Below are positions 46,365 to 56,402 of a stretch of DNA of 64,000 nucleotides, in pieces. The notes beneath the pieces were generated by a model, which was not told the DNA's origin, searched no databases, and saw only the letters and a list, made by a program, of their open reading frames with translations. Positions within the stretch are counted from its first letter, which is position 1. The number at the start of each line of letters is the position of its first letter. Both the position numbers and the translations under genes were made by a program. The DNA is from Desulfoplanes formicivorans. GTDB lineage: Bacteria; Desulfobacterota; Desulfovibrionia; Desulfovibrionales; Desulfomicrobiaceae. The DNA is taken from assembly GCF_001748225.1 (NCBI RefSeq), contig NZ_BDFE01000015.1, forward strand, positions 124,001 through 188,000, in the 5' to 3' direction.

Positions 46365-46518
<154 letters not shown>

Positions 46519-46594: not shown

Positions 46595-47704
46595 CTACCA
46601 TCCATAATGCTCCGCCAAACGGTTTTGGACATGTTCTTTCCTGAGTGCTGACAAATGGGTATACCGATCCGTGCTTCGAATATCCCGGTGACCCAACATC
46701 TCTTTGACATCCTTCAGATCCCCACCCGAAGTAATGATATTGCTGGCAAACGTGTGCCGGAGATCATGAAAATGAAAATCCTTGAGCTCGGCAATCAGAC
46801 ACGCCTTGCGCCAAGCATTGCGAAAATCTTTTCGGCGGGTTCCGTCGACATGCCCAAACACCAGCGAGGCATCAATATTCACAAGATTTCGCCGTTTACG
46901 AAGATGAGCTAAATGTTTTTGCCATTTGAGCAGGGCTTTTTTCATTCTTGGCATCATCTTCATGGTTCGCTCCATGCCGTTTTTCGTTCTGTAAAACGTT
47001 ATCAGGTTATTTTCCAAATCAATGTCATCCCAGCGCAAATCAAGAATTTCCTGCTTTGAACAGCCATGTTCAGCACCGAGCAAAACCATGGCGGGCAGAT
47101 AATGCTTGCCATAAGTCCTGCCGCATGCCGAGAGGAGCTTGTTAAGTTGTTGCGGACTGAGATACTTGTTTCGTTTATGTTTGGATTCATTCAAATACCT
47201 GATTGAAGCGGCGGGGTCTTCGGGAATGGCCCCTTCTTTTAGCGCCCTTGCGAAAACCTGCTTGCATACAAAAAGCCGCCGATTGGAAGTAATAACGGTC
47301 TGCTCCATGGCCACATCTGTTCGATATTCAAGAATTTTTTCGGTGGCGATATCCATCAAAATCATATTCCCGAAAACCTTGTTAAGTTGTTTCAGAATGA
47401 TTTTGTATCCATCAACAGTCACTGTCTGAATCTCTCCCACACGGACTCGCTGATCCCATTCTTCACAAAGAAGTTTACCGACATCGCTGAAAGTCAAGAG
47501 CTGATGCTTTTTTTTGATCTTGGCCATTTCAGCGTATTCACGGCCATCTATCATTACCCGGAGCCTTGCTGCTTCGGCAACGGCATCTCTTTTCGTTTTG
47601 AATGTCTTGTAATACTTACGTTTTCCACTGAGTGGATCGCGAAAATAAACCACAAACGATTTATCATTTTTGTTCACACGCTCGCTAATCAGAACTGTTG
47701 CCAT
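46595..47704 (-). CDS. int: Tyrosine recombinase/integrase of the island
   Basis: 369 aa. N-terminal arm-binding domain, core-binding domain and a catalytic domain. The usual first Arg motif (GLRxxE) reads GCSKQE here, so the Arg is replaced by Ser; the following RW and KNGMERTM regions are normal. HDLRHTFASN, LGHRD and the nucleophile in STDRYTHLS are intact. Similar substitutions may characterise this subfamily. Reads towards attL; start overlaps the excisionase-like gene. Confidence 0.93.
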   Translation of the reverse strand: MATVLISERVNKNDKSFVVYFRDPLSGKRKYYKTFKTKRDAVAEAARLRVMIDGREYAEMAKIKKKHQLLTFSDVGKLLCEEWDQRVRVGEIQTVTVDGYKIILKQLNKVFGNMILMDIATEKILEYRTDVAMEQTVITSNRRLFVCKQVFARALKEGAIPEDPAASIRYLNESKHKRNKYLSPQQLNKLLSACGRTYGKHYLPAMVLLGAEHGCSKQEILDLRWDDIDLENNLITFYRTKNGMERTMKMMPRMKKALLKWQKHLAHLRKRRNLVNIDASLVFGHVDGTRRKDFRNAWRKACLIAELKDFHFHDLRHTFASNIITSGGDLKDVKEMLGHRDIRSTDRYTHLSALRKEHVQNRLAEHYGW

Positions 47705-47961
47705 TGGCCGTTCTCCTTAGTCGAGCTTTTCTGAGAACCAGTCTTCGCTATTTGTCTGTCAATGAACAGGGCGATGTCCCGTCTGGCGACTCGCTTGGTT
47801 CCCCTTACCAAAAAATATGGCAATGTGCCATCACTAAGAAGCCTCGAAATCGTCGAGCGATGGACAGAAAAAAGATCTGCCAACTGCTTCATACTATAAA
47901 ACGGTCGATCAAGTTCAATTTCATACGGGTTGGTTTCAAATATTTCCTTTTTTACACTCAT
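47689..47961 (-). CDS. AlpA/excisionase-like DNA-binding protein
   Basis: 90 aa with a MerR-type helix-turn-helix (YSMKQLADLFSVHRSTISRLLSDGTLPYFLVRGTKRVARRDI), as in excisionases and AlpA activators. ATG 47961 follows GGAG by eight bases; the longer start at 47973 lacks one. Overlaps int by 16 bases, so they are probably co-expressed. Confidence 0.85.
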   Translation of the reverse strand: MSVKKEIFETNPYEIELDRPFYSMKQLADLFSVHRSTISRLLSDGTLPYFLVRGTKRVARRDIALFIDRQIAKTGSQKSSTKENGQWQQF

Positions 47962-48316
47962 ACAAAACTCCATGGTTGCGTTTTAAACCATTATAGAGTT
48001 TTGTTTTTACAATCCAAAATTTCAAAAAATTTCATCATTCAATAGTTAAATATATTCCTATCGATCCATCATAATAATGACTCAAGTGACAAAATTGCAT
48101 CTATCAAAAGGTCACCCCTTGATATAAAATGAATAAAACATTTGAAATACCATTGATTTATTATATGAAATCAATATGTTAAAAGATAAATGCAATCAGA
48201 ATCAAAAGTACTCTGCAAAAATCCAAATTGACATGAAAAAATATTATTTTTTTTCCCAAAAAAATTATGGTATAATTGAGATTTTTTTATTTCTGACTCA
48301 TTTCCTTTCATATTGA
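47962..48316. other. AT-rich intergenic stretch in the island
   Basis: 355 bp, very AT-rich. No gene seen. An extended -10-like TGGTATAAT at about 48269-48277 points towards the recombinase at 48317 in the opposite sense; possibly a short antisense transcript. Confidence 0.4.
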
Positions 48317-49318
48317 TCATGGTCTGAAATCAACATCGTTACTTGCTAGCTGTTCCCCAAACGGGCTTGAAGGTAGTTCCCTGAGTGCATGACTACATTG
48401 GACATCTTCTATATGCGTATTTCCCCGGGCCTGTCTGCTGGTCCCATATTTTTTCTTTGAGAGAGTTGATCTGTGCCCCAAAATCATCGAAATTTTGGGA
48501 GGCAGGCATCCCTCTCCCTTCAAATCTGCTGATAGCTGATGCCTGTAGCAGTACGGTGAAATATGATTTTTTCTCCGTGGCCAGATTTTCTGAGAAAGTC
48601 TACGTACATAGTCATTCAATCTTTTGGCTTTTGCTCTAATGACAACACGTCCGGAATCCGCGACACAGCTCAACAGGTAATCTACGGGTGAGCCATCATA
48701 GACAAGACCACGCATATTGATAAAAATTCTTCGTTCGGGCTGCCCATTCTGTTTTGCCTTGCCTACCTTTGAACCTTTGATGACAAATTCTAAAAATTCC
48801 GAGTTCTCATCTCCAATCACGGTTACACCCCGTTCGATTTCGCTCGGCCTGGCCCCTGTGAGGTGAAGAACGGCAAGCGCACCCTTGTAATCATAATTGC
48901 TGCACCGGTCCCACATCATTTCACGCCAGTTTGTGGGCATTCCCCGCAACGCTTTCCTTTTAGATTTTCCAGGGCTTTTTGTTTTCACTGGACAATTTCC
49001 AGTATTTCGACCGTGTTCTTGGTATAACTTGATGAGATAGAGTAACATCCTTTTATTTTTTTGGAGATTACTTTCATCCAGAGAATTTGAATTCATTTTC
49101 CTGAGATACAACACCATATATTGCTTTATACAATACCGCAAAGCAGCCTTCTTCTTGTAATAGTAGCTTTTTGAACCTTCATATAAAAAACCATCTTTAT
49201 CCTTTGTTATTTGTTTGAATATTTTCATGTATTCATTTTTCGTTTTATCTTCTAATTTTTTTTCTCCAATTTCTTGCATTATTTTTTGTGCAGTTTCAAT
49301 AATATTTTTTACTTTCAT
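48317..49318 (-). CDS. Second tyrosine recombinase-like protein
   Basis: 333 aa, AT-rich coding. N-terminal helical Lys-rich domain; catalytic region with Arg in LTGARPSEIERG, Lys in KGSKVGKAK, then SPYCYRHQLSADLK (first His replaced by Tyr), LGHRST and Tyr in KKKYGTSRQ. Resembles the HQ-type integrases found in integrative elements. Codon use differs sharply from the flanking chromosome. Confidence 0.8.
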   Translation of the reverse strand: MKVKNIIETAQKIMQEIGEKKLEDKTKNEYMKIFKQITKDKDGFLYEGSKSYYYKKKAALRYCIKQYMVLYLRKMNSNSLDESNLQKNKRMLLYLIKLYQEHGRNTGNCPVKTKSPGKSKRKALRGMPTNWREMMWDRCSNYDYKGALAVLHLTGARPSEIERGVTVIGDENSEFLEFVIKGSKVGKAKQNGQPERRIFINMRGLVYDGSPVDYLLSCVADSGRVVIRAKAKRLNDYVRRLSQKIWPRRKNHISPYCYRHQLSADLKGEGCLPPKISMILGHRSTLSKKKYGTSRQARGNTHIEDVQCSHALRELPSSPFGEQLASNDVDFRP

Positions 49319-49454
49319 TTTATCAATCTCCGTATTTTACATTCAACAACAATTATAATACGAAGAAATCAAAATGCAAGCTTCAGTGGTATGTATAAGC
49401 ATCTCACTGAATCGACTATATTCGATCTATTTGATTTACTGAGTATGGATTGCA

Positions 49455-49699
49455 TTTTTTTTGGGTAAACCAATGTAGGGATACCCAATGCCCGCTCGAA
49501 TTAATGTAATGGACAATGTGCAGTATAATATGTGTATTTTATACAGTAAAACGTTGCATCATGCTCGAGCGGGCATATTCTTCCGCATTTTTTGAATGCG
49601 GAAGAATATGCGTGTGGGATGCGGAAGAATATTAGAAAAGATGTCGGCGACGCTGCCGAGGGGAAGGGGGGTATCCTAGTGGGTGGGTTTACCAAAAAA
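49455..49699. repeat. Imperfect inverted-repeat element, MITE-like
   Basis: Left end TTTTTTGGGTAAACC with GGGATACCC nearby (to 49486); right end, on the other strand, TTTTTTGGTAAACCC with GGATACC (49670-49697). Length about 245 bp. Inside are a second inverted pair ATGCCCGCTCGA (49488-49499) / TCGAGCGGGCAT (49565-49576) and a hairpin. No transposase. Confidence 0.5.
49574..49610. repeat. 16-bp perfect hairpin with extra direct copy
   Basis: CATATTCTTCCGCATT (49574-49589), loop TTTTG, AATGCGGAAGAATATG (49595-49610). A further ATGCGGAAGAATAT lies at 49619-49632. Function unknown: could be a protein site, origin-like iteron or RNA hairpin. Confidence 0.6.
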
Positions 49700-50033
49700 T
49701 TTTGGGAATCCAAGAATTATGGCGGGCAAGAGTAAAGCGAGGATAGCCTTGGCGAAAATCATCCTCTCGGGATTATCACAAAATTAGAAAATTTTTTTGC
49801 CATTTTTTTCAAAAAAATCTTAACGAGGGGGGTTGTGTCATACAAATACGTGATGCTATATGGGCAAACCACTAAAAGGTGATGTCTGGCAAAAAATTGT
49901 CATGTTATTTGAGGAGCACCTGAATCTTTAGAGATATTGCTCACCCATTTTCTTGGTTGATTATCAGGAACTGGCTTAACTGGGTCTCCACTAAACTGTT
50001 GCAGGATCAACCTTATTATACAAGAGGGAAGTA

Positions 50034-50864
50034 ATGCCTCGATTATCACCTAAATTGGAAACTTTAAGAGCGCTTTTTGCTCGCTCCGGCAACCAGTGCG
50101 CGTTTCCAGGCTGTACTCACCCTCTGGTAAATGGTGACAACCTTTTTATCGCACAGGTTTGTCATATCGAAGCGGCGAGCAGCGGCGGAGAGCGATTCAA
50201 CCCTGACAGTGACGATGAGTACCGTCGAAGCTATGAGAACCTGATTCTGCTGTGTTACCCCCATCATATCGAAACAGATGACGTTGACCGATATCCGGTG
50301 GAAAAACTCAAAGAAATGAAGCTGAATCATGAGCAACTATTTGAGAAGTCCAACTTTAAAATCGATGAAGCCGTCCTTTATAAGCTCAAAGATCAAATGG
50401 ACGAGTATTGGGAAAAAATCGAGCGCACCAACAAGCTGGAACATGTTTTCCAAGATTCTGGTTTGGCTATGGAGGTCAACGGCAAGGCTAGTTTTTTTGA
50501 AGTAATGCAAAGCGCGCATGATGCGATTGCGGGCATCGAGCATTTGCTTGAGTCATTCCATAAAAGCGACGAAAGTTTGCTTGAGGATTTGCGGGCTATA
50601 CTCGAAAAGTGCGGTTTGGATGCCACTGTAATTGACGCGATTCCCTACTACGAAAACCCTTTTTTCAATCGGAACTGGGAATATCACAACCTAGGATCAG
50701 CAAATTGGCTGCAGCGCATAAGCATTGATCTAGTGCATCTCGAAGTGAAGTACCTAGAGGAGTACTTGATCACCAATAGCGATGACCTTAAAGCCAAGAA
50801 GAGGCTGGAGGAGCTGATGCCCGTTCTAGAGGAGTATGCAAGCAATGCGATGCATGTCGACTGA
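50034..50864 (+). CDS. HNH endonuclease-family protein
   Basis: 276 aa. N-terminal HNH domain: C22 and C27 (CAFPGC), H44 in CHIEAASSGG, N69 in ENLILLCYPHH, giving the zinc and catalytic residues. The remaining ~190 residues are mostly helical and acidic with no family recognised; they may sense or bind a partner. AGGGA is five bases before ATG. AT-richer than the core genes. Followed 95 bp later by a membrane-protein gene, which may be its partner. Confidence 0.85.
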   Translation: MPRLSPKLETLRALFARSGNQCAFPGCTHPLVNGDNLFIAQVCHIEAASSGGERFNPDSDDEYRRSYENLILLCYPHHIETDDVDRYPVEKLKEMKLNHEQLFEKSNFKIDEAVLYKLKDQMDEYWEKIERTNKLEHVFQDSGLAMEVNGKASFFEVMQSAHDAIAGIEHLLESFHKSDESLLEDLRAILEKCGLDATVIDAIPYYENPFFNRNWEYHNLGSANWLQRISIDLVHLEVKYLEEYLITNSDDLKAKKRLEELMPVLEEYASNAMHVD

Positions 50865-50959
50865 TCTGTATAACAAGTTGCTGCACGCGGATAAATTACT
50901 CGCTGTGCTCCTAATTTACCGGTGAGCAAAGCATTAGACAAATTTTAAGGGATACTAAT

Positions 50960-51289
50960 ATGGATGATACATTTAGAAAAAAAGCTAAAGATACATTACA
51001 CAATGAAGACAAACTTAAGTATTTCGCAGAACTTAATAGACTATCAATTGATGCTGCACGGGCACTGCTGGAAAGATTGTTAAGAGAGCCAGATATTTCA
51101 GAACAAGCCAAGGAATATATTTTTTCCAAGGAACGTAGTGATGATTTCAAAGGTTATCAAGCAGGTGAAGAAATAGGTTACAAGAAAGGCCATGAAGCTG
51201 GCTTCGCAAAAGGGGCAGCACTTGGTGCCTTAAGTGTTATAGGTACTCTCACTGTTGCTGGGTTAGCATTTCTTTTAAATAAAGATTGA
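50960..51289 (+). CDS. Small glycine-zipper membrane protein
   Basis: 109 aa. Residues 1-60 are charged and helical. Glycines at 65, 69, 73, 77, 81, 85 and 89 are spaced exactly four apart (GYQAGEEIGYKKGHEAGFAKG), leading into one membrane helix (about 86-106) with further glycines at 95 and 101. Glycine zippers of this kind pack helices in membranes. AGGGAT precedes ATG. No known family recognised. Position suggests a module with the HNH gene. Confidence 0.7.
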   Translation: MDDTFRKKAKDTLHNEDKLKYFAELNRLSIDAARALLERLLREPDISEQAKEYIFSKERSDDFKGYQAGEEIGYKKGHEAGFAKGAALGALSVIGTLTVAGLAFLLNKD

Positions 51290-51374
51290 GCCTCTCAAAA
51301 AAAACTATGATTGCAGTTATAAATGCCTAACAATAAAATTGTGTCGGACCGCCTTCCGCAATTCCTTTGCCAAT

Positions 51375-51416
51375 AAAAATGGCAGGCATTCAAACAAGAA
51401 TGCCTGCCATTTTTTT
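51375..51416. terminator. Strong bidirectional terminator-like hairpin
   Basis: AAAAATGGCAGGCATT (51375-51390) pairs with AATGCCTGCCATTTTT (51399-51414). T-run follows. It ends the HNH/membrane pair and directly abuts the CRISPR array. Confidence 0.85.
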
Positions 51417-51597
51417 GTCTCAATCCCCTCAAGTCGGGGCAATGTTTCAGACTGGTGTGGCCAGCTTGTAAACAACAGCTCGTTCGGTGAGTCTCAATCC
51501 CCTCAAGTCGGGGCAATGTTTCAGACAAAGAAAGAACTCCCGAACGGCAAAGTCATTTCGGGTCTCAATCCCCTCAAGTCGGGGCAATGTTTCAGAC
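51417..51597. CRISPR. Three-repeat CRISPR array without cas genes
   Basis: A 36-bp repeat occurs three times without change at 51417-51452, 51491-51526 and 51562-51597. It begins GTCTCAATCCCC and ends GTTTCAGAC, with a CCCC...GGGG core. Spacers are 38 and 35 bp and unrelated to each other. No cas gene in the window. Located in the island, so acquired by transfer. Direction and type are not settled. Confidence 0.88.
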
Positions 51598-52242
51598 TCT
51601 TACTCCCAAAACCCACGTCTTGCAAGGGTTGAAAACCGTTTTACCATCCACCTCCCCCTTTTTTGGGGTCCGGTAAATTTTTGCAAATGAAAATTTCGAA
51701 TTTTTCATGTTTAACCTACTGTAATAATGACCGATTGGCTCTACCATCCACCCCATCTGATGTAGGGTAAACAAATCAACAAGTTGGCCCATTGCGCCCT
51801 GAAATACCAATCATGGATGGTAGATGAAACAACATGAAACAATTGGTCCCTGGGTAAAAAAGATGCCGTTCCTTCGAGGAGTTGGAAACCCTTTTTGTTC
51901 TTCTTTGGAAAACCCTGTCAGCAACACCTCCAGAAATGATCCTGCTCCAGACTTGAGGAGTTGAAGTTAATCCACTATCCTGACAATCAGCCAAACGGGC
52001 TAGAAATTCCTGCCTTAAAAATTTCAACCGGCATTTTGGCAATAAGAGCGTAAGGATAGCCGCATATTTCCTTTCCAAAAAATCTAGCCTATTTCTAGCC
52101 TTCTCGCCGAGCACCATGCCAATCTATTGATTTTATTCACCGCATGCACGCCCATCACAGCCAGTGAAATGCGCCAGGAATCGGGAATATTTTCCGTTTT
52201 TTCAATTAGTTATAACAATCAAAACAGGCTATAATCGTCTGG

Positions 52243-52646: not shown

Positions 52647-52771
52647 GAATGGCATTCAAGAGGTCGTCAGTTCGATCCTGATCAGCTCCACCATTAAACG
52701 CTTATAATGATTCACCAAATCCCTTGAATGCCGCTAAAAGGCCGACTGAAAAGTCGGCCTTTTTTGCGTTT
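52647..52771. repeat. attR: second copy of the 125-bp direct repeat
   Basis: Perfect copy of 46394-46518, right end of the island. It carries only the 3' half of the tRNA, so no second tRNA gene is made, plus a working-looking terminator. Confidence 0.95.
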
Positions 52772-53000: not shown

Positions 53001-56000
53001 TCAGAACATGAAGCTGGCCCGGATCAGGCCGGTGTGGGCGGTTGTATCGTCGTTATATTCTCCGGCATAGGTCATTTCCAGGGAGAAATCATCCTGGGTA
53101 AAGGCGACTGTAGCGGAAAGAGTAGCTGTCAGGTCGTCCTGCTCGGAGGTGACTGTAACGGGCGCGCTACCGGGAAGGGACAGGTCAACATCCATGTCAT
53201 CATCGGTAAGCAGATAGCGGACTCCTGCGGCCACGGACGGGGTCACCTCGACCCGACCCACCTGGGTGCTGGTCAGCCAGCGAAGGGAGGCCACCGAATA
53301 GATCTGGTGCTCGTCCAGAGAGGAGTAATGCACGTTCCAGGCATCATTGTCGGCATCCGTTGTGTAGCTCTCCCTGGAGAGCCAGAGATAATTGAATCCC
53401 ACCTCGGGCAGGATACGGTGTTCTCCCAACTCAAACACACGGCCGCCCATCACCTGGGCATTGATCCCCCAGGTGTTGTAGTCGGCGTCTTCGTCCATTT
53501 CCAAATTGGTTCCGGTCAGCCCCTCGTAGTCGTGCATGGCGTAAAATCCGGTCACCCGGCCGCGCAACGTCCACTCATCCATGGCTCCCATGGCGTGCAC
53601 GCCTGCGCTCAAGAGATTCTGATCCTCGGAATTATTCGAGTAGCCTGTCCCCGTGAAATCCAGATCGGTATAAGCGGAACCAAAATGGAAACCAAGCAGT
53701 CGATTGTCGTATTTGAGCTCATAACCGGCCATAAAACCAATGGTATTAGCGTCATACCCCACAGGAGAAGCATCCCGGTCCATATTGGTGTAATAGGGGG
53801 TCATGTAGACGATTCGGGTGGCCCCGGGAGAATACGCCGAAGCGTCGCTCATCACCATGCCGGAATCGGCATAGAGACGGGAGGCAGACTTGTCCGATTG
53901 TGCCAGTCCGGGCTGAAAAAAATGATTGGCCATGTTCTGCCCCACCAGATTTCCGGCAAGGGAGATGGTGCTGGAGAGCTGATTGATCCCGGTCAGAGAA
54001 GGGGACGCCTTGGGCTGATAGGAGAGGGAAACCGTATCGTCCGAACTGTCTTCCGTCCCCCGAGTATGGTACGCCGCAACAACAGCGGGATTCTTGGCCG
54101 TGGTCCCGCTGAAAGATCCATTCACCTTTCCCGTGCCATTGGTCTCGAAAATGGTGTACTCGGTATCCCACTGAAAGTCGTTGCCCACGGCGGTCAGGGA
54201 GAGCAGGGCGTTGTTCAGGTCAAGGGTGGATCCGTAACCGACATAGATGGAGCCGGTGTCTGGATCGCCATCCAGATTCATGTTGTAGGTATCCTTCAGG
54301 GTAACGGTAGGGCTTGAATTGTCTGCCAGATAAACCTCATAGGCCTTATCCCCGAAGGCCCTGATGACGCCCGTGTTGGTCAGGGTGTTCTCGCCTTTTA
54401 AGAAGCAGATGCCAAAGGCATAGCTACTTCCCGTTCCCCCCCCTGTGGCGCTTACGGTGATGTCTCCCGTATTGTACACTTCGCCTTTGGTTACGATGCC
54501 ATAGGCAAATACATCAGCAACGGCAGAGCCACTGTCACTCGTTGCCGTACCCCCTGTGGCCCTCACGGTGATGGCCCCTGTATTGTGCACGTCACCACTA
54601 TAGTAATAAGCATCCATATAGATACCATACGCTCCGGCAGAGGCATCGGCAGAGCCACTGTCACTCGTTGCCGTACCCCCTGTGGCCCTCACGGTGATGG
54701 CCCCCGTGTTGTACACGTCGCCACTATATGTCTTAATAATGCCATAAGCATCGGCATCGGCATCGGCAGAGCCACTGTCACTCGTTGCCGTACCCCCTGT
54801 GGCCCTCACGGTGATGGCCCCTGTGTTGCGCACATCGTATTTGTTAGAGATACCATAAACTTCGGCAGAGGCATCGGCATTGGCAGAGCCACTGGTAATC
54901 GTTACCGTACCCCCTGTGGCCCTCACGGTGAGGGCCCCTGCGTTGTCCACGTTGCCATCGCCTTCATTGAAGATGCCATAGGCTTTGGTAAAAGTATAAA
55001 AACTACCCGAACCATCAAGGGTCGCATTCGCCCCCGTGGCGGTCACGGTAAGATCACCCGTGTTGTAGTACACGTAGTCACCGCCTTCAGTGGAGATGCC
55101 ATAGGCATAGGCATAGGCATCGGCAGAGCCACTGTTACTCGTTGCCGTACCACCCATGGCGGTCACGGTAAGATCTCCATTGTTATACACATCGCCACTA
55201 CCATACATATTAAGGGAAATGCCATAGGCTTCGGCAAAGGCATTGACAGAGCCACTGGTACTCGTTGCCGTACCACCCATGGCCGTCAGGGTGATGGCCC
55301 CCGTGTTATGCACGTCGCCTTTGCTACCAATGCCCCAGGCTGTGGCTTGGGCAGAAGCAGTTTTTGTGCTACTTTCCGCCGTACCCCCTGTGGCCCTCAC
55401 GGTGATGGCCCCTGTGTTGTCCACGTCGCCACCGCTATCAATGCCATAGGCACGGACCTGGACATCGACGTCACTGTTACTCGTTGCCGTACCACCTGTG
55501 ACGATCGTGGTAATGGCCCCTGTATTATCCACGTCGCCACCGCTATCAATACCATAGGCTTCGGCATAGGCATAGGCATAGGCATCGGCAGAGCCACTGT
55601 TACTCGTTGCCGTACCACCCATGGCCGTCAGGGTGATGGGTCCCGTGTTATACACGTCGCCATCGCCTTTATTGAAGATGCCATAGGCTTCGGCAAAGGC
55701 ATCAGCCTGTTTAGTATAATAACCTGTTGCCGTCCCACCTGTGGCAGTCACAAAAATATCTCCAGTATTATATACATAGCTATCTGTATAGAGATATATT
55801 CCTTTGGACATAGCATCGGCAAAGGCACTATAAAAATCAGTAGATGAATCGTCAATAGTCGCATTGCCGCCTATAGCTTTCAAGGTAATATTTCCAGTGT
55901 TATAGATATCATAGCTATTGCTTGTATTATTATCGATATAAACACCATTAGACTCGGCATTAGCAAAAGCATTACTACCACAAGAACTCATATCACCACC

Positions 56001-56282
56001 AGTTGCAGTGAGATCAAAGTTACCACTGTTTTTGATGCTGGCAGCATTTGAATAAATACCTGTGATGCCACTGCCAGTGATGCTTTTGGTGTAACTACCC
56101 GTGTTTACAGAATTATCCCCCTTAGAAACATCAATGATCTCTTCCGCCCAAGCCTCCCGGGCAGGGGCTGCCCCCAAAAATAAAAGGCCTGCGGTCAGGG
56201 CGACCAACATCGTCCAACATGTCCAGAGAGTCCTGCGTCGGATCATGCTGACATGTATGTCAGAACATAACAAGGTACTCAT
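53001..56282 (-). CDS. Repeat-rich autotransporter (type V secretion)
   Basis: 1,093 aa. Signal peptide with an extended N-terminal part (MIRRRTLWTCWTMLVALTAGLLFLG; cut near AWA-EE), passenger of about 14 repeat units of 40-45 aa (NTGAITVRATGGTATSDSGSADADADAYGI type), and a C-terminal beta-barrel of about 280 aa ending in Phe (ASFMF). The repeats suggest a beta-helix. ATG 56282 is chosen for GGAG nine bases upstream. An intact luxR-type regulator lies further upstream on this strand and a truncated copy of this barrel lies between. Confidence 0.9.
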   Translation of the reverse strand: MSTLLCSDIHVSMIRRRTLWTCWTMLVALTAGLLFLGAAPAREAWAEEIIDVSKGDNSVNTGSYTKSITGSGITGIYSNAASIKNSGNFDLTATGGDMSSCGSNAFANAESNGVYIDNNTSNSYDIYNTGNITLKAIGGNATIDDSSTDFYSAFADAMSKGIYLYTDSYVYNTGDIFVTATGGTATGYYTKQADAFAEAYGIFNKGDGDVYNTGPITLTAMGGTATSNSGSADAYAYAYAEAYGIDSGGDVDNTGAITTIVTGGTATSNSDVDVQVRAYGIDSGGDVDNTGAITVRATGGTAESSTKTASAQATAWGIGSKGDVHNTGAITLTAMGGTATSTSGSVNAFAEAYGISLNMYGSGDVYNNGDLTVTAMGGTATSNSGSADAYAYAYGISTEGGDYVYYNTGDLTVTATGANATLDGSGSFYTFTKAYGIFNEGDGNVDNAGALTVRATGGTVTITSGSANADASAEVYGISNKYDVRNTGAITVRATGGTATSDSGSADADADAYGIIKTYSGDVYNTGAITVRATGGTATSDSGSADASAGAYGIYMDAYYYSGDVHNTGAITVRATGGTATSDSGSAVADVFAYGIVTKGEVYNTGDITVSATGGGTGSSYAFGICFLKGENTLTNTGVIRAFGDKAYEVYLADNSSPTVTLKDTYNMNLDGDPDTGSIYVGYGSTLDLNNALLSLTAVGNDFQWDTEYTIFETNGTGKVNGSFSGTTAKNPAVVAAYHTRGTEDSSDDTVSLSYQPKASPSLTGINQLSSTISLAGNLVGQNMANHFFQPGLAQSDKSASRLYADSGMVMSDASAYSPGATRIVYMTPYYTNMDRDASPVGYDANTIGFMAGYELKYDNRLLGFHFGSAYTDLDFTGTGYSNNSEDQNLLSAGVHAMGAMDEWTLRGRVTGFYAMHDYEGLTGTNLEMDEDADYNTWGINAQVMGGRVFELGEHRILPEVGFNYLWLSRESYTTDADNDAWNVHYSSLDEHQIYSVASLRWLTSTQVGRVEVTPSVAAGVRYLLTDDDMDVDLSLPGSAPVTVTSEQDDLTATLSATVAFTQDDFSLEMTYAGEYNDDTTAHTGLIRASFMF
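54410..56030 (-). repeat. Tandem repeats in the autotransporter passenger
   Basis: About 14 units, period roughly 120-135 bp, each coding NTGxITxxAxGGTAT and ending AYGI. Units in the 54,480-54,900 stretch are almost identical in DNA sequence (for example GTACCCCCTGTGGCC recurs), pointing to recent expansion by unequal recombination. Confidence 0.85.
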
Positions 56283-56402
56283 AGCGTATACTCCGTTGGA
56301 TTGAAAATATAGAACAGGCCACATTCTGCTTACAAAAGAAAAACTTGCATATCAGACAACCCGATATTCAGTTTTCTTTATGCGGTTATATGAATTGGCC
56401 GC

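Follow-up and report, generated by a model that had tools for sequence, protein, structure and literature searches.

A putative phage-defence nuclease carried as an integron cassette in a tRNA-Ala island of Desulfoplanes formicivorans

The island and its gene content

The window analysed here, a stretch of 64,000 nucleotides of the Desulfoplanes formicivorans genome, contains a genomic island of 6.4 kb that lies inside a tRNA-Ala gene between exact direct repeats of 125 bp (Table 1). With a GC content of 41% against 53-56% on both sides, it holds only recombinase genes, a small HTH gene, an HNH nuclease gene, the gene of a glycine-zipper protein and a CRISPR array. A preliminary description of this DNA had placed an HNH reading frame and one of 109 amino acids in an island beside a CRISPR array; both frames are present at the positions given, with 276 and 109 amino acids, and the setting is borne out by the three-repeat array and by the 125-bp repeats at the tRNA-Ala gene. 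For the first spacer of this array, no exact match was found among viral sequences. One further copy of its repeat lies at the start of contig C3 (G000:C3:2113), and cas1 is on a different contig (C17).

Table 1. Positions of the features in and around the island, numbered from the first base of the window
Feature	Position	Strand	Basis
tRNA-Ala (GGC), attachment gene of the island	46365..46440	+	ARAGORN and Rfam
Left 125-bp direct repeat (att), overlapping the 3' part of the tRNA	46394..46518	+	Exact repeat
Island tyrosine integrase, left end	46595..47704	-	Pfam PF00589, E 3.7e-30
Small HTH protein, excisionase-like, left end	47689..47973	-	Pfam HTH_17, E 1.5e-7
Repeated 1.7-kb element with divergent tyrosine recombinase gene (48317-49318)	48236..49918	-	Genome copies
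Integron gene cassette with the HNH gene	50016..50933	+	Edges of Thiocapsa (L003) match; 5' core TTATAC
HNH gene, 276 aa	50034..50864	+	ORF; family alignment
Cap5-type HNH nuclease domain, residues 4-108	50043..50357	+	Structure and sequence matches
All-helical C-terminal domain, residues 110-276	50361..50864	+	Predicted structure, alignment, sharing with DUF4062 proteins
attC site, folds as bottom strand	50868..50939	+	Likeness to estX attC, covariation, covariance model
109-aa protein with seven-glycine GxxxG run, probably tail-anchored and an independent passenger	50960..51289	+	ORF; Shewanella plasmid likeness
Candidate 5' half of a truncated attC, second cassette (GCCTAACAA...CGGAC)	51325..51360	+	attC 5'-half profile
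Perfect 17-bp hairpin directly before the CRISPR repeats	51375..51414		
Orphan mini-CRISPR, three repeats and two spacers, right part of island	51417..51597	+	Repeat/spacer structure
Right 125-bp direct repeat (att)	52647..52771	+	Exact repeat

Several repeated sequences accompany these genes. The 1.7-kb element (window 48236-49918) has copies elsewhere in the genome at 84% and 70%, its further locations being C16:10861-12533, C20:2904-4340 and C16:3276-3630, and includes a conserved palindrome at 49573-49611; it is possibly a self-moving unit that tends to adjoin cassette arrays. Its recombinase carries a tyrosine where the histidine of the HxxR motif is usual, and as a candidate integron integrase it was ruled out by having no TIGR02249 or IntI match. 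A family of 57-78 bp repeats occurs near attC sites in several arrays of the genome (window 49934-50009 and 51937-51993, the latter inverted; L101 3753-3830, L099 5546-5602, L102 2245-2275), and the two window copies, in inverted orientation, flank the segment that holds the HNH gene, the glycine-zipper gene and the CRISPR repeats. Outside the island, at 53001-56324, the window encodes an autotransporter-like protein of 1107 amino acids with many near-identical repeats (VYNTGAITVRATGGTA).

An integron cassette and its neighbour

The HNH gene forms an integron cassette. Between 50016 and 50936 the DNA is 94.5% identical to a stretch of Thiocapsa imhoffii (L003), and the flanks share nothing. 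The left edge of this match falls exactly on the 5' core TTATAC, which in Thiocapsa comes after the integron core G and which is complementary to the attC box GTATAAC; on the right, the match runs to the core of the attC, whose final six bases (TTAGAC) are part of the following segment. Because the identity stops at the cassette edges, the cassette moves alone, without the glycine-zipper gene. The attC site itself also came to light independently, as the one stretch for which a distant search at the DNA level gave matches in E. coli genomes (244 records). In the records examined, the site is the attC of estX, a resistance cassette, with an identity of up to 86%; intact arrays have aadA1 or a remnant of it next to the site, and one record has intI1/intI2 pseudogenes beside it. 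Folded as bottom strands, eight attC sites from the cassette family and estX adopt one common imperfect hairpin with one-sided bulges, and 17 of the 25 pairs of its stem stay paired through two-sided changes. With a covariance model built from them, the window site reaches 86 bits as bottom strand and only 10 bits as top strand; since the window and Thiocapsa sites were among the eight that built the model, their own scores hold by construction, and it is the homology to estX and the cassette edges that are independent of it.

How widely is this arrangement found? The family alignment comprises 19 full-length sequences, aligned end to end, and 10 of the 18 full-length relatives adjoin an attC site, eight as found by the covariance model (L003, L004, L005, L007, L009, L010, L011 and L015, four of which had contributed sites to it) and a further two by scanning for the attC pattern (L008 and L013). 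These ten come from Gammaproteobacteria, a cyanobacterium and a Nitrospirales MAG; hosts of the family include Shewanella, Photobacterium, Pseudoalteromonas, Vibrio, Ferrimonas, Moritella, a Chroococcus MAG and a Nitrospirales MAG. No attC was seen beside the most diverged members (L018, L021-L023).

The base before the recombination core TT is canonically G. At both ends of the HNH cassette (50015 and 50933) it is A, so that mobility is possibly reduced and the cassette may no longer move well. As no promoter-like site was found upstream of the HNH gene, its expression in the D. formicivorans genome is uncertain; judged from its sequence, the gene appears to be a promoterless cassette inserted into the tRNA-Ala island. 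The locus resembles the CALIN elements, clusters of attC sites that have no integrase and by the usual definition need two attC, in presenting an attC-bounded gene with no functional intI nearby; it differs in having a single complete attC, plus a candidate half site.

The genome as a whole has no complete functional integron at present, as its intI is broken. No intact intI scored above the TIGR02249 cut-off in a search in which XerC/D respond in all controls, so that only the fragment-level comparison was used, and three relics were all that remained. These are related to one another (L099 10057-10838 on C16, L100 5403-6132 on C9 and L103 1449-2196 on C20); two of them score best with the integron-integrase model, and cassette arrays lie beside at least two. 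Other attC sites are found on contigs C2, C9, C10 and C16, where, in distinction to the island, arrays hold several. The three broken intI genes and the scattered attC sites indicate that the host once had a working integron. Its other cassettes encode an AbiTii protein (L101 2701-3690), an nSTAND1 NTPase (L100 4079-5407), an NgoFVII-like PLD nuclease (L101 2103-2552) and a HEPN-like protein (L101 1404-1964). An Mrr-type restriction nuclease gene adjoins an attC in the Thiocapsa array that holds the HNH cassette (L003 3739-4578), and neighbouring cassettes of this and other genomes encode AbiTii, nSTAND1, NgoFVII-like, HEPN and Mrr domains.

The 109-residue protein following the HNH gene has the features first ascribed to it: seven glycines at an exact four-residue spacing from G65, a number reached in none of 100,000 shuffles, lead into a single hydrophobic C-terminal helix at residues 88-106 with a mean hydropathy of 2.13. 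Its only convincing homologue, 45% identical with five glycines in register, is encoded on a Shewanella putrefaciens plasmid, where it lies near parA and repB, away from any HNH gene. Weak matches to FliH and to L068-L070 reflect similarity of the GxxxG repeat only. No further copy was found in 369 genomes of the Shewanella class, in a search that had no positive control. The gene starts 26 bases past the attC core, as in a cassette, and 36 bases past its stop lies the sequence GCCTAACAA...CGGAC, which ranks 8 of 127,956 window positions in a profile of attC 5' halves; a full attC after the gene was not found by the covariance model, even with its filters off. Most probably the gene represents a second cassette, its attC having been cut short close to the hairpin and the CRISPR repeats, the alternative being a resident gene of the island. 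Its product, probably cassette-borne, is a separate membrane protein with a tail anchor.

This comparison gives no support to the proposal that the nuclease and the glycine-zipper protein belong together in a defence or toxin module of two genes, with the latter as a pore-forming partner. The genes are adjacent and in the same orientation within one island; however, an attC site separates them, the HNH cassette moves without its neighbour, and the plasmid homologue has no HNH gene. Joint occurrence outside the window locus was not seen in the data examined: no such protein is encoded beside the 18 full-length HNH relatives, and among 64 loci of the HNH family none yielded a match at E<1, chance matches having E>3. 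We therefore regard a two-gene module as extremely improbable, and pore formation as unsupported. A toxin-antitoxin-like pair that stabilises the island is very improbable, too. The nuclease could serve as a toxin, and cassette arrays often hold toxin-antitoxin pairs; against this, the HNH gene stands alone in at least 10 other arrays, and the presumed partner has a membrane helix, unlike usual antitoxins.

The HNH domain and the helical domain

The preliminary description had recognised an HNH protein with a long, unassigned helical part, a view that is upheld by the near-invariance of the HNH residues in relatives and by the helical C-terminal half in structure prediction. The HNH part, predicted with HNH-only relatives included in the input, superimposes on Pseudomonas syringae Cap5 (8fmf) with a VIA-align Z of 15.6 and 1.7 A over 103 residues, and Foldseek matches it to the same protein with an E of 9e-5. 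Cap5 is the top match in structure and also in sequence, in PADLOC and PDB sequence searches, and is followed among structures by EcoKMcrA (Z 7.9) and ScoMcrA (Z 7.1). Residues C22, C27, H44, N69, C74, H77 and H78 are all present, H44 being nearly invariant and the other six invariant in 30 aligned sequences. The active site thus looks intact and Cap5-like.

The domain also heads many other proteins, with differing tails. The PADLOC candidate PDC-M68A has it in common with the window protein (E 1e-25, residues 9-105), but the match stops short of the C-terminal domain. In Pseudomonas marginalis (L053 8001-8912), the HNH domain is followed by a Shedu-like (DUF4263) tail, as suggested by a PADLOC match to SduA. 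Phage records yielded nothing but the HNH domain, 36% identical, in lysogenic conversion genes of the P2 type, and no glycine-zipper protein; relatives of neither island protein were found in the viral contigs searched.

Is the protein, then, a relative of Cap5 that responds to cyclic-nucleotide signalling from elsewhere in the cell? Cap5 is the closest match to its HNH domain, and the two share the N-terminal position of that domain, its fold and its zinc and catalytic residues. However, SAVED domain and cyclase belong to Cap5, whereas the window protein has an all-helical domain instead: profile and PDB matches, those to Cap5 included, end at about residue 140 at most, nothing SAVED-like was found over residues 141-276, and no CD-NTase (cyclase) gene was found among the island genes. 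We give such a CBASS-type role very little credence.

The C-terminal domain is marked by the motif PYYENPFxNRxWE and by an invariant last residue, Asp276. A fold search returned no clear solved relative, only generic helical bundles with Z of about 7 or less, which are no evidence for a new fold. Its distribution is rare and patchy: among 395 genomes of the D. formicivorans phylum it was found in 2, and among 369 of the Shewanella class in 1. The domain, together with motif and terminal Asp, recurs on DUF4062 proteins of two lineages, one in a genome of the D. formicivorans order (G024; L072/L123) and one on a Sulfuricurvum plasmid (E 7e-13), there encoded between hsdR and an Mrr-type endonuclease gene. 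DUF4062 itself is absent from the window protein in a Pfam search. As the HNH domain occurs with various tails and the same tail occurs on DUF4062, both effector and tail appear to be modular. Neither a Cap5-type HNH domain with this tail nor an exchange of the tail with DUF4062 was found described in the literature searched, which for antiphage cassettes consisted of reviews (PMC12409362 and PMC12444791); within that scope, the family does look undescribed.

A candidate single-protein phage defence

What can be discerned from this architecture about the role of the HNH protein? According to published work, DUF4062 is a TIR-like NADase, and the DUF4062 protein of the Swarozyc antiphage system binds the phage portal protein with its C-terminal auxiliary domain, described as winged-helix (PMC13174449). 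The window protein resembles Swarozyc in its single-protein layout of an effector and a C-terminal auxiliary domain; it differs in having an HNH nuclease where Swarozyc has an NADase, and an all-helical bundle as opposed to the winged-helix domain with which KpSwz binds the portal. Its status as a cassette, together with a tail shared with an NAD-destroying antiphage enzyme domain, makes a suicide nuclease that acts against phages as a single gene the probable reading. We consider it rather likely that the cassette in the tRNA-Ala island encodes a single-protein abortive-infection effector, in which the tail would sense and the HNH domain would cut.

In the mechanism we propose, the helical C-terminal domain would detect a phage product or an infection state, upon which the protein would change its assembly state, activation presumably proceeding by oligomerisation. 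The Cap5-type HNH domain would then cut DNA, and either the infected cell would die or its phage would fail. The 109-residue protein would not be needed for this step. Cap5 offers a precedent, as its HNH domain is inactive until the C-terminal domain is engaged and degrades DNA once activated (PMC8568899). Integron cassettes, moreover, are established reservoirs of antiphage and other defence genes (reviewed in PMC12409362 and PMC12444791).

Against the abortive-infection reading stand a C-terminal domain that has no clear solved fold and whose helical bundle is unlike the winged-helix described for the portal-binding domain of Swarozyc, and a gene before which no promoter-like site was found. 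Most integron cassettes have no known function, which likewise counts against a role in defence. Antiphage integron cassettes are reportedly treated in Darracq 2025, Kieffer 2025 and Getz 2025, which the two reviews cite; the HNH cassette is like these in being a compact single-gene cassette with an attC, spread across unrelated bacteria, and unlike them in lying outside an active integron.

Alternatively, the protein could be a small modification-dependent, type IV-like restriction enzyme, whose tail would recognise modified or foreign DNA and whose HNH domain would cut it directly, with no suicide of the cell. McrA-type HNH enzymes are the next structural matches after Cap5, the Thiocapsa array with the HNH cassette includes an Mrr gene as another of its cassettes, and integrons are reported to contain reduced type IV systems (PMC12409362). 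We nevertheless hold this to be unlikely, as the match to Cap5 is far stronger, no known fold for reading DNA or bases was found in the all-helical tail, and the same tail is carried by a DUF4062 NADase, which needs no DNA reader.

For the HNH protein by itself, its context and the swapping of domains lend good support to a putative role in defence. Of the undescribed defence module suggested at the outset, the putative defence role and the apparent novelty of the family are supported, and the pairing of two genes is not. More tentatively, with the odds falling a little short of even, the helical domain could be a new phage-sensor module that is mounted on different suicide enzymes, an HNH nuclease in one case and a DUF4062 NADase in the other, with the HNH version making up a new abortive-infection system of one gene, packaged as an integron cassette that distant bacteria trade.

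An anonymous HNH reading frame has in this way become a mobile unit whose ends are exactly defined, and a compact construct open to direct tests. Away from Vibrio and the clinic, where integrons are usually studied, the genome of D. formicivorans presents one whose scattered cassettes are rich in defence-like genes although the integrase is dead. If our interpretation is true, a nuclease-type member would be added to the single-protein phage sensors, and one sensor domain would serve two chemically different killing enzymes.
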